Shown here: one piece after another, positions 20,755 through 26,300 of the stretch | Layout of the letters: each line of letters starts with the position of its first letter | Position numbering within the stretch: position 1 is the first letter of the stretch | Source: a virus | Virus record (IMG/VR): IMGVR_UViG_3300047276_000426 | Location: 1-28,287 of that record | Direction: 5' to 3' (one strand) | Length of the DNA stretch: 28,287 bases | Made by a program: the position numbers and the translations under genes | The notes under the pieces: model-generated | Seen by the model: only the letters and a program-made list of their open reading frames with translations | The model's database searches: none | What the model was told of the DNA's origin: nothing

Positions 20755-21549
20755 TTAGAGCGGCATGGTCGAATCGAACGCCCCCGCCGGCTGGTCTGCC
20801 GGTTGCTCTCCCTTGTGAGCTAATGCCGCATTTTTGCGCCTTTCGGCTAAAGTAATCTTTTCCCCTTTGTACATTCCGGCCCCAAGTTCGTCAATTTTTG
20901 AAAACGGAATGATGGGGACGGTAATTTTGCAGGTTTTGTCTATTAGGTAAATGTATCGGAGTTGGAAGCCATCAACATTTTTACACCCTTTTTCTAAAAA
21001 CATATTAATACTACTTGCCCCAGTGTCTTTAATTCCACATTCATTTAATATTCTTGCTCTTTTAGGATTACCAACTTGTGTTAAAGTCATTCTTGTAACT
21101 CTCTCTCCTCTTGGAGTTTCAATTATTTGAGTGCTTTTTTTTATCGCCGTCAAATGAAAACCACTAGCTCTATAAATAACACCATCACCGCATTGAACAC
21201 CATCTGAAAAAGATAAAATCCATTTTATATGTGGTGCATTTTTTTTTATTAATTTAACTGCAATTGAAAAACATCTACTTTCAGAATATTTAGGTAAATA
21301 GTCATCAAAAGCCATTCTATTAAGTTCTAACATTTCATTCCATAAACACGGCTGAACAAGTGGTAAAACCTTTGATTTATCCATAGGACTTCCAAAACTC
21401 ATAACACCATGCAATTTATCATCAAGAAAACAACCAAAATGCAAAGCACTTGTATTGCTTACAGTTCCGCTGTAATGATGCTTTTTCACAAACTCATTAG
21501 CAACCTTCGCCGGTATGACCTTCACGATTATATCCTTTGCCCTGCCCAT
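20755..21549 (-). CDS. Mom-like DNA modification protein (GNAT fold), 264 aa
   Basis: Strong resemblance to the Mom family, named for the phage Mu protein that converts adenine to N6-(methylcarbamoyl)adenine and blocks restriction. Matching segments are IPAKVANEFVKKHHYSG (12-28), LHFGCFLDDKLHGVMSFG (36-53), EMLELNRMAFDD-LPKYSESRCFSIAVKLIKKN (72-104) and WILSFSDGVQCGDGVIYRASGF (110-131). These are the acetyltransferase-like core of the family. The gene overlaps the ParB-like gene by 22 nt and precedes the terminase genes. Its core is far more AT-rich (21001-21480, 32% GC) than either end or its neighbours, suggesting recent acquisition. No Com-like translational activator was seen. Target base and cofactor are not known for this member. 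Confidence 0.85.
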   Translation of the reverse strand: MGRAKDIIVKVIPAKVANEFVKKHHYSGTVSNTSALHFGCFLDDKLHGVMSFGSPMDKSKVLPLVQPCLWNEMLELNRMAFDDYLPKYSESRCFSIAVKLIKKNAPHIKWILSFSDGVQCGDGVIYRASGFHLTAIKKSTQIIETPRGERVTRMTLTQVGNPKRARILNECGIKDTGASSINMFLEKGCKNVDGFQLRYIYLIDKTCKITVPIIPFSKIDELGAGMYKGEKITLAERRKNAALAHKGEQPADQPAGAFDSTMPL

Positions 21550-24745: not shown

Positions 24746-25015
24746 CTACTTTTTTTCAATCCGATACCGCGCCACCCGTTTTTTCGGGCTGACGGGTATC
24801 ATTTCGGTGATGACAACAAATTGATTACCCTCTTCCTGCAACGCCTGCCGGATTTCATGCACGCGGGCTTTCATATTCCAGCACCCGAACATATTGAGTG
24901 CGTCCATTGCGGTGAGTGTTCCACCCCCTTCGAGGTGTTTGCGGATTTGCGCCCGCTGGCTTGGGCTGGATAACACGGGTTTGGCAAAATGGCTGTTTAA
25001 TTCTTCTATCAACAT
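24746..25015 (-). CDS. Small HTH-domain protein (PF14090-like), 89 aa
   Basis: A small DNA-binding-type protein. AQIRKHLEGGGTLTAMDALNMFGCWNMKARVHEIRQALQEEG, about residues 22-63, matches the helix-turn-helix domain common in phage accessory regions (pattern LT..DALN.FG...ARxHEIR). A short beta C-terminus follows (FVVITEMIPV...VARYRIEKK). It starts after an A-rich leader and lies 11 nt before the truncated HNH, and 83 nt after the gene ending at 25099 with an attC-like element between. It may regulate the downstream modification island, but no operator was found. Confidence 0.75.
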   Translation of the reverse strand: MLIEELNSHFAKPVLSSPSQRAQIRKHLEGGGTLTAMDALNMFGCWNMKARVHEIRQALQEEGNQFVVITEMIPVSPKKRVARYRIEKK

Positions 25016-25052
25016 TCGTTTTTAATTTTTAAGTTTTGTAATTCTATTTAGC

Positions 25053-25092
25053 TTCGGGTTCAGCCACTTCGCCAAGCCCGAAAACGTTGGGC
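25053..25092 (-). repeat. attC-like half element, site A
   Basis: Immediately after the TAG at 25099-25101, the minus strand reads GCGCCCAAC, containing the core RYYYAAC (GCCCAAC, 25092-25086). This is followed by a stem TTCGGG/CCCGAA (25077-25082 with 25053-25058) with an 18-nt loop containing CTTGGCGAAG. No GTTRRRY partner follows within about 40 nt. It resembles half of an integron recombination site, or one of the degenerate intergenic repeats seen in Bacteroidota genomes. Confidence 0.4.
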
Positions 25093-25098
25093 GCAATA

Positions 25099-25296
25099 CT
25101 AAGGATGCACCTCATTAAGTTCGTGTTTAGCCATTTCAAGACCTTTTACAACGGCTGACATAACCATATCTAAATCCGTTCCGTTAAACACCTGCCAACC
25201 GCCTTGTTTGTCAAATATAGCTTGATTGCCTTTGAAATCCTCAGTTAAACATTTTAGGATTTTCTTCTTGATTAAATTTCGTTCTTTGTTTGTCAT
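25099..25296 (-). CDS. Unknown small protein, 65 aa (cassette-like unit 1)
   Basis: A Lys-rich N-terminal helix (MTNKERNLIKKKILKCLTEDF) and a short amphipathic C-terminal helix (GTDLDMVMSAVVKGLEMAKHELN) enclose a middle segment (IFDKQGGWQVFNG). It is not recognised. An attC-like half element follows its stop directly, and site B precedes its start by 20 nt. So the gene is bracketed by such elements, as a gene cassette would be. Local composition is AT-richer than that of the structural genes. Confidence 0.65.
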   Translation of the reverse strand: MTNKERNLIKKKILKCLTEDFKGNQAIFDKQGGWQVFNGTDLDMVMSAVVKGLEMAKHELNEVHP

Positions 25297-25316
25297 TTGA
25301 TTAAATAAAGTACTGC

Positions 25317-25412
25317 GCCCAACAGCGGTTTAGCGCAATGCCGCTGAAAGTGCAGTGGTTAATAATTAATTTTAGTGTATGCGGCACTGCGCAAAGCGCA
25401 GGAACGTTAAGC
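25317..25412 (-). repeat. attC-like inverted-repeat element, site B
   Basis: Eight nt after the stop at 25422 the minus strand has GCTTAAC (25412-25406, fits RYYYAAC). Twenty nt before the next start is GTTGGGC (25323-25317, fits GTTRRRY). The two can pair fully with G-U wobble. Inside are a 12-bp inverted repeat, 25333-25344 with 25381-25392 (one G-T mismatch), a perfect 6-bp hairpin CTGCGC-AAA-GCGCAG (25387-25401), and an AT-rich loop of 36 nt. This order (stop, R'', stems, R', next gene) matches integron attC sites, although the two L boxes adjacent to the R boxes are weak. Confidence 0.5.
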
Positions 25413-25421
25413 AAAACCGCA

Positions 25422-25682
25422 CTACAACATTTTTGCATAGTCGGTAACTGCTTTAGCATGTTCAAGTATTCTGCGTTTATATTTCTGATTGACAGGGCGG
25501 CTTCGCTTAACAGAAGGATTTGAAGAAATTTTTAAAACCTTCCGTAAGTATTTATCAATTCGTTCTGCCGCTTTCTGGCATTCAGTATCGTAATTTCCGT
25601 CACTCGTTGACCAACCGTTAGTCCATCCTAATTGGCTGTTGATGATTTTTGCAATGTGGTATTTCTGTTTTTCTGTAAGCAT
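25422..25682 (-). CDS. Unknown small protein, 86 aa (cassette-like unit 2)
   Basis: Not recognised. An N-terminal helix (TEKQKYHIAKIINSQLGWTNGW), then DGNYDTECQKAAERIDKYLRKVLK, and a basic C-terminus (KRSRPVNQKYKRRILEHAKAV). No Cys pair, membrane segment or signal peptide. It begins 11 nt after the preceding gene without an attC-like repeat between them, so the two may belong to one unit. The element at 25317-25412 follows its stop. High Lys/Arg content would allow nucleic-acid binding, but that is only an inference. Confidence 0.65.
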   Translation of the reverse strand: MLTEKQKYHIAKIINSQLGWTNGWSTSDGNYDTECQKAAERIDKYLRKVLKISSNPSVKRSRPVNQKYKRRILEHAKAVTDYAKML

Positions 25683-25693
25683 ATAAATCGGTT

Positions 25694-26011
25694 TTAAAAA
25701 CTTCTCAAATCTATGGCGTTTTTACAATTGAGTAAAGAATAAAGCGCAATGAACCTGTTTTTGCGGTACTCACTTTCACCGGCTCTAATTCGCCAAAACT
25801 TCCTCATCTCCCATCCAAGTTGAAGGACACATTTCTGCTGAAGTATGTCCCACCTTCTGACCGATATTTTGGTAGTTGTCGGGTCAGGCAGTGTAAACGG
25901 AAGAGACCTTACACGGTAAACGTGTTTTAGTAGTTGCCACTCCCGCCGCTGCTGCTGTTTGTTGATCGCGTACATTTCGGCCTTTACGCCTCTTGTTTTT
26001 CCTTGAAACAT
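25694..26011 (-). CDS. Unknown small basic protein, 105 aa (cassette-like unit 2)
   Basis: The preferred start is the ATG at 26011, behind an A-rich leader (Bacteroidota-type start). A longer frame begins with a GTG at 26053. The protein is very basic and Trp/Arg-rich (QQQRREWQLLKHVYRVRSLPF; ISVRRWDILQQKCVLQLGWEMRKFWRIRAG), with a C-terminal helix (ALYSLLNCKNAIDL). Not recognised. The attC-like site C lies between it and the upstream short gene. A role in nucleic-acid or membrane interaction could be imagined from charge, with no direct support. Confidence 0.6.
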   Translation of the reverse strand: MFQGKTRGVKAEMYAINKQQQRREWQLLKHVYRVRSLPFTLPDPTTTKISVRRWDILQQKCVLQLGWEMRKFWRIRAGESEYRKNRFIALYSLLNCKNAIDLRSF

Positions 26012-26056
26012 GACTTTGTTTTTTTTTGTAAATAACCCTGCTTGCCAGTACACCTT

Positions 26057-26095
26057 CGCCTAAACGGCGAGCGGCGTACAAGCCGCAGTTAGGCG
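26057..26095 (-). repeat. attC-like inverted-repeat element, site C
   Basis: Three nt after the TGA at 26099-26101 the minus strand reads CGCCTAAC (26095-26088; core RYYYAAC), then a GCGGC/GCCGC hairpin (26082-26086 with 26071-26075, 6-nt loop), then GTTTAGGCG (26065-26057). The ends can pair with one bulged T; the partner is GTTRRRY with one extra base. Short overall (39 nt). It may be an attC-like recombination site, a simple hairpin (terminator without T-run) or a degenerate repeat. Confidence 0.45.
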
Positions 26096-26098
26096 CTT

Positions 26099-26248
26099 TC
26101 AAAAACTCCCCTTCAACCACTCCACCGCCTCCGGCACTGCGTCAATCATTTCCTGAGTTGCCTTTGCGATCGTAACGATACACGGCCCGGAAACGAGGCA
26201 CGGCCCAACGCCGGGGTAATTTTCGACAAAATGCCAAGTTGCGTTCAT
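26099..26248 (-). CDS. Unknown small protein, 49 aa (cassette-like unit 3)
   Basis: The ATG at 26248 is chosen: the promoter at 26269-26300 would start transcription near 26262, and the only codon further upstream that could start the frame is a TTG at 26299 inside that promoter. The sequence (HFVENYPGVGPCLVSGPCIVTIAKATQEMIDAVPEAVEWLKGSF) has two Cys and a C-terminal helix. Not recognised. First gene of the cassette-like block and followed by element C. Confidence 0.6.
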   Translation of the reverse strand: MNATWHFVENYPGVGPCLVSGPCIVTIAKATQEMIDAVPEAVEWLKGSF

Positions 26249-26268
26249 TGCTGCTTTGTTTATGCTCG

Positions 26269-26300
26269 TAAAGTTACGAGGCTTTTTTGAGTTGTGCAAA
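26269..26300 (-). promoter_or_regulatory. Bacteroidota-type promoter for the small-gene block
   Basis: On the minus strand TTTG (26300-26297) is followed after 20 nt by TAACTTTA (26276-26269), close to TTTG-N20-TAnnTTTG. It has the same spacer length as the promoter at 12-43. It lies in the short gap between the dnaB stop (26328) and the ATG at 26248. It would drive the cassette-like genes and perhaps the modification island and terminase genes downstream. Confidence 0.6.

Follow-up and report, generated by a model that had tools for sequence, protein, structure and literature searches.

Hairpin-bounded small genes in a phage genome: a probable array from an integron-like system of cassettes in Bacteroidota phages

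Integrons are usually regarded as bacterial gene-capture devices. The phage locus described here raises the question whether a block of small genes, separated by hairpins that resemble integron attC sites, belongs to such a device, and which part of each repeating unit moves. The window, the whole stretch of DNA that was analysed, comprises 28,287 bases of an IMG/VR virus record and contains terminase, portal and DnaB genes. The block occupies 26.1-24.7 kb on the minus strand, with DnaB on one side and an HNH/acyltransferase/glycosyltransferase gene run on the other; the acyltransferase and glycosyltransferase names were read from the sequence without a family search. It is an array of small genes with attC-like hairpins between the cassettes and is AT-rich (GC 0.402 versus about 0.53), as an earlier sequence-only reading had reported. 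The three stop codons that this reading listed, each followed within about 10 nt by an RYYYAAC box, are present on the minus strand, and its statement that the window lacks an integron integrase agrees with our search of all 28,287 bases, which detected no tyrosine recombinase, an absence to be read with the possibility that the record is a fragment. An attI-like terminal site was looked for in the window and not found, and an Rfam search of the window gave no family at threshold. With sites A, B and D and the weak site C the block has the form of a CALIN, i.e., a cluster of at least two attC sites with no integrase nearby. A second AT-rich stretch of the window (GC about 0.40) carries a Mom-like DNA modification gene (20755-21549); a tRNA call that overlaps it (20758-20829) is probably false.

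Both strands were scanned for a stem-loop that follows AAC and precedes GTT, with a short spacer on either side. The top three minus-strand scores were 44.0 (A), 41.5 (B) and 33.0 (C), and these are the same three sites for which inverted repeats had been claimed. The best score in 200 dinucleotide shuffles was 38.5, none reaching 41.5 and 26 reaching 33, so that sites A and B stand above chance and C alone does not; C was dropped as a significant site by itself. Its hairpin spans 51 nt in the scan, and its R' is likely the GTTATTT at 26036 instead of the GTTTAGGC proposed earlier. The boxes of A, B and C in the earlier site list were retained, but two elements had been overlooked. One is the R' of site A, GTTATCC at 24974, which lies 111 nt from the short box GCCCAAC (25092-25086) and within the HTH_39 ORF. 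The other is site D, which was found by hand and checked by script. Positions are collected in the table.

Table. Attachment-like sites and genes of the cassette block (window coordinates).
Feature	Position	Strand	Details
Site A	24960..25100	minus	R'' AGTATTGCGCCCAAC 25100-25086; R' GTTATCCAGCCCAAG 24974-24960
Site B	25309..25420	minus	R'' GCGGTTTTGCTTAAC 25420-25406; R' GTTGGGCGCAGTACT 25323-25309
Site C (weak)	26030..26094	minus	R'' GCCTAAC 26094-26088; hairpin; R' GTTATTT 26036-26030
Site D	25497..25732	minus	R'' ending in TTGTAAAAAC at 25718; R' GTTAAGCGAAGCCGC 25511-25497
66-aa ORF	26099..26299	minus	ATG at 26248; upstream of site C
105-aa ORF, gene of unit C	25694..26011	minus	ORF call
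86-aa ORF of unit D	25422..25682	minus	unit 25717-25406
65-aa gene of unit B	25099..25296	minus	unit 25405-25086; own ends 15/15, G·T at 11
HTH_39 (PF14090) ORF	24746..25015	minus	after site A; Pfam 4.8e-08

The attC architecture, R''-L''-loop-L'-R' with RYYYAAC and GTTRRRY boxes, is found in sites A, B and D, and 293 sites built in this way were gathered outside the window, duplicates counted. Inside the boxes, site A has a GTTTT spacer, the stem CGGGCTTGGCGAAGTGGC/GCCATTTTGCCAAACCCG and a T before R'; site B has a GTTCC spacer, an L''/L' stem and a T, its short box being GCTTAAC (25412-25406). Site D has the 5-nt spacer GCCAT, L'' from 25712, an L' ending in CTTCAAATCCTTC and the 1-nt spacer T. 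Its R' pairs with the R'' ahead of site B at 15 of 15 positions, one of which (position 11) is a G·T. In the form that it would take in a circle the site has a computed fold of -31.1 kcal/mol (DNA parameters). The loop of site D carries the ATG of the 86-aa ORF, which is translated through L' and R'.

The genes between these sites are small and mostly without relatives. The 65-aa protein belongs to a conserved family of unknown function and has viral relatives, seven at 86-90% identity and one at 47%, whose flanks differ and whose ends covary. In a scan of genome contigs the only relative came from a Bacilli MAG (L013, 64%) and had no cassette ends. No clear family was found for the 86-aa ORF, and relatives sought in viral contigs were absent. 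The 105-aa ORF has neither a Pfam or PHROG match nor a relative in viral contigs, and its unit C fails the strict own-end test, GTTATTTACAA and TTGTAAAAAC pairing by eye only with one bulged base. No relatives were found for the 66-aa ORF, which is probably native phage flank. The HTH_39 protein lacks relatives in viral contigs, and a matching unit end for unit A was not found in the window.

Ordinary integron cassettes would be the obvious explanation. In such a CALIN each gene is followed by its own attC, the crossover is at R' and IntI acts in trans. Qi et al. 2023 (PMC9892861) described attC clusters in phages, of which five of six tested sites, including one from P12002L, recombined with attI1 under IntI1. 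Furthermore, the 47% relative of the 65-aa protein sits amid VCR-like attC sites (L009, L058), so this gene family also occurs in canonical-looking cassettes. The linkage of hairpins and genes argues against the order gene, R'', stems, R' that the sequence-only reading had assumed. Site A is 94% identical over 118 bp to a stretch of the Flavobacterium Muminvirus, and the limits of the match are its two boxes. The 5' part of hairpin A recurs, by pattern scan, in 34 viral DNA stretches between different genes; site A is absent from plasmids. Among 29 distinct cases, all from the hairpin-A group of sites, the downstream gene was common to eight contig pairs and the upstream gene to none. The hairpin thus belongs to the gene that follows it. 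The longest ORF is oriented from R' to R'' in 135 of the 136 units that could be scored.

Hairpin A may owe this linkage to a coding role. In its long variants the ATG in the loop mostly lies in a frame open into the downstream gene, in either of two frames one base apart, so that unrelated genes share an N-terminal peptide encoded by the site. This includes the HTH_39 ORF, whose first 14-15 codons (MLIEELNSHFAKPVL) are encoded by site A and whose N-terminus is common to unrelated genes downstream of the same hairpin. A hairpin that supplies the start of a gene would explain why the two travel together. An annotated methyltransferase CDS in three viral contigs (L010-L012) also begins within hairpin A, and its N-terminus would then be encoded by a recombination site.

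The position of exchange is visible where close relatives differ by a single unit. Phages mumin6-1 and mumin6-3, which are 99.9% identical, differ by one extra 506-bp unit in mumin6-1 that is bounded by TAACGTT. A 439-bp unit is internal in lillamy9-1 and terminal, next to the constant site, in lillamy9-7, with no mismatches and with seamless YYYAAC↓ junctions (the arrow marks the exchange point). A tally made by eye from a list, and without a null, covered 39 + 56 distinct breakpoints in 20 isolates of Muminvirus, Lillamyvirus and Hattifnattvirus and placed most of them at TAAC↓ or in the adjoining hairpin base. In the Polaribacter phages P12002L and P12002S, from another host genus, the breakpoint has the identical position. 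One class of breakpoints lies at R' (ACTTGTTAT↓), so a second crossover position may exist. Gain, loss and relocation at YYYAA↓C indicate that the moving unit is a hairpin with the gene that follows it. On the opposite strand this point reads G↓TTRRRY, the hairpin closes the unit at its far side and the terminal site stands where attI would be, which is integron geometry with the genes reversed. Exchange therefore occurs at the box that had earlier been named R'', not at R'. The IntI arrangement, a gene followed by its own attC with crossover at the R' of that site, was not what we found: the hairpin moves with the downstream gene, the hairpin further downstream is kept when a unit is gained or lost, and for the Flavobacterium and Polaribacter phages the polarity of ordinary cassettes is contradicted.

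These junctions also bear on two explanations that do without site-specific recombination. Phage homologous recombination could exchange modules with the hairpins serving as short conserved linkers, and it would fit the conservation of hairpin arms across units and the fact that some breakpoints extend a few bases into similar arms. Yet breakpoints fall at AAC↓ even where the hairpins share TAACGTT only, a unit was relocated with no homology beyond TATAAC, and the covariation of a unit's own ends would have no role; we regard this explanation as very improbable. Alternatively, the hairpins might be transcription terminators or translation leaders without a recombination role. Some hairpin A loops do have an A-rich leader and a start codon open into the gene, which makes an additional regulatory role likely. 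As a full account, this deserves hardly any credence, since it cannot give exact insertion, deletion and relocation of units or the covariation of a gene's two ends, and the sites are exchange points in relatives.

All named array-bearing phages found here infect Bacteroidota. An array-less close relative of the window's phage was not found, so that the empty site was not seen. The relatives found by terminase (41-58%) have no such hairpins at a score of at least 34; they were used as a negative control and do not stand for the empty site. The genomes of relatives contain further features of these arrays. In P12002L (L066) a 68-bp terminal site occurs twice, at about positions 37265 and 29239 of that record, and closes two separate arrays. 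The Muminvirus and Lillamyvirus arrays (L059-L079) include many DNA methyltransferases among their cassette genes, and the methyltransferase content of these Flavobacterium phages has been tied to plating on strain LMO6 (PMC7077304).

If the hairpin and the following gene form a unit, the two ends of the unit should be related to each other. Around relatives of the 65-aa gene the boxes before and after the gene change together in four of seven contigs (L003-L006): the pair is GTTGGGCGCAGTAC/GTATTGCGCCCAAC in the window, GTTAGGCACAGTAC/GTATTGTGCCTAAC in L004 and L005 and GTTAGCTTTTAGTAC/GTATTAAAGCTAAC in L006. In 65 distinct units from many phages 82% of positions 4-14 are paired between own ends, compared with 55.6% (sd 1.6%) after random re-pairing and 54.6% between array neighbours, the two boxes that flank one hairpin. 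Among 41 units preselected for pairing at positions 4-14, pairing does not extend past position 15, and 39 of them show G·T at position 11; both features lie outside that selection. The spacers in these units are 5 and 1 nt. The window contains exactly two 15/15 matches, which are adjacent, both on the minus strand, and correspond to the units of the 86-aa and 65-aa ORFs. No such match occurred in 100 shuffles of the window, nor in unrelated phages picked through their terminase or helicase (343 kb + 805 kb, together 1.15 Mb). Units that fit the rule occur in Polaribacter phage P12002L. Vibrio phage p16, which has a canonical integron, gave no 15/15 matches, and the absence of the 15-bp G·T end rule from this phage argues further against ordinary IntI cassettes. 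The rule can serve as a simple detector for such arrays.

An enzyme gene is found at the end of the array in many relatives. Tyrosine recombinase genes were first seen in three array-bearing contigs. In two of them the gene starts 36 nt (G002) and 51 nt (G021) past the end of a unit, and in the third (G030) an AAC box and the same following motif lie at that distance, with a five-unit array further upstream. Searching with all three proteins produced 47 loci. Near the recombinase gene 91 units lie upstream on the same strand, one lies downstream and three are on the opposite strand; all 28 testable loci, those whose upstream DNA extends for 900 bp or more, show the array upstream. The last AAC↓ lies 51-53 nt from the recombinase ATG in 22 of 29 cases, and the terminal site carries the motif AAC↓TAYTATATRTA. 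A constant attI-like site thus lies beside the recombinase in relatives, and the 267-aa Xer-like tyrosine recombinase gene follows it directly in many viral contigs. At one locus (G002:2600-9000, L056) a second array ends next to the N-terminal remnant (79 aa) of a recombinase from this family.

The closest family of the recombinase is archaeal XerA (NF040815, 187 bits versus a cut-off of 220), and it falls under every curated NCBIfam cut-off. Scores against the IntI family TIGR02249 are 145.6 and 137.9 bits versus a cut-off of 265. The protein is about 45 residues shorter than IntI4 where IntI has the I2 insertion: the gap from the K to HxxR, with catalytic residues judged by invariant alignment columns, is 53-54 residues in 29 phage recombinases and about 97 in IntI4 2a3v. 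The 145.6-bit score of an adjoining recombinase, together with the polarity and the end rule, makes ordinary IntI cassettes unlikely. The alternative offered by the sequence-only reading, a mobile repeat specific to Bacteroidota, was partly right in that the named array phages infect Bacteroidota and the recombinase is not IntI by family score. Hairpin-dependent, scarless single-strand transposition is the mode of movement of HUH elements of the IS200/IS605 type, and clean joins would also be expected from an element family of this kind using the hairpins. This is extremely improbable here, given that the arrays adjoin tyrosine recombinase genes and that a G↓TTRRRY core with an attI-like terminal site suits a tyrosine recombinase.

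The recombinase gene is absent from all tested records of Flavobacterium, Polaribacter and Cellulophaga phages, although units of the Flavobacterium phages have moved. For the Flavobacterium phages and for the window the enzyme would then have to act in trans. In the Flavobacterium phages another small gene lies 53 nt after the terminal site, as if it had replaced the integrase gene; in L059 and relatives (gp003) it looks ribbon-helix-helix-like by eye.

In view of the above, the block very probably belongs to an integron-like cassette system found in Bacteroidota phages, either as a remnant or as a minimal array. The central claim of the sequence-only reading, that a phage here carries cassettes of small genes equipped with attC-like sites, is thereby supported, and related cassettes do lie between different genes in other phages. 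In the mechanism that we propose, a cassette would consist of a hairpin site, a gene and a 15-nt end, hairpin and gene being one unit, and in the hairpin-A group the loop would often provide the start codon. Excision and insertion would take place at YYYAA↓C on the gene strand, the equivalent of the integron core G↓TTRRRY on the opposite strand. Once the unit is excised as a circle, its two 15-nt ends would be brought together on either side of the hairpin and pair in full, folding into an attC-like site, whereas in the array neighbouring ends pair at background level only. New units would be added beside the constant attI-like site (AAC↓TAYTATATRTA...), right after which many relatives encode their Xer-like tyrosine recombinase. 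We infer that this adjacent enzyme is the catalyst at these sites and that folded single strands are its substrate. The cassettes of the window may still be mobile; with no recombinase in the contig they would need the enzyme in trans, possibly from the host, a prophage or a co-infecting phage.

Lytic phages thus seem to carry a working relative of integrons that reshuffles methyltransferases and small genes of unknown function. We slightly favor the view that it is a separate phage-borne lineage, with an Xer-like recombinase lacking I2, hairpins of reversed polarity and a 15-bp outer stem with its G·T, representing an early form of the integron or else an independent invention of the same device. 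Both origins fit equally well. In integron integrases the I2 insertion has been described as the key innovation. A viral origin of integrons from an Xer-like enzyme without I2 has been suggested (Escudero et al. 2016, PMC4792948). Such an origin would predict an early form like this system, whose recombinase lacks I2, and the system could thus make that idea testable. While attC cassettes in phages are known, neither the reversed cassettes nor the 15-bp G·T rule nor this recombinase turned up in a search of open-access full texts, subscription journals and preprints lying outside it.

Compared with IntI integrons and CALINs, the phage arrays share the RYYYAAC/GTTRRRY core, the R and L stems and one gene per unit, as well as the complementarity of own ends in the circle, a constant attI-like end for addition and an adjoining tyrosine recombinase gene. 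They differ from IntI integrons in that the hairpin lies ahead of the gene, not after it, and the genes are read toward the attI-like site. Their own ends pair over 15 bp, position 11 being a fixed G·T, whereas by eye 8-11 bp pair in the integron of Vibrio p16; the spacers of the phage units are 5 and 1 nt, and the recombinase lacks the IntI insertion. The phage CALINs of PMC9892861 have in common with our arrays attC-like sites in virulent phages and DNA methyltransferase cargo, but the excerpted text of that study reports no unit movement, reversed polarity, repeated terminal site or recombinase of this kind. By sequence the nearest family is that of the Xer recombinases (archaeal XerA, NF040815; PDB 5hxy, 4a8e), from which the phage enzyme differs in being linked to cassette arrays, not to a chromosomal dif site. 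The integration of CTXphi by host XerCD (PMC4792948) similarly combines a phage hairpin site with a recombinase without I2. There one phage genome inserts, whereas here the units are single-gene cassettes in arrays, with the recombinase gene adjoining them in relatives.
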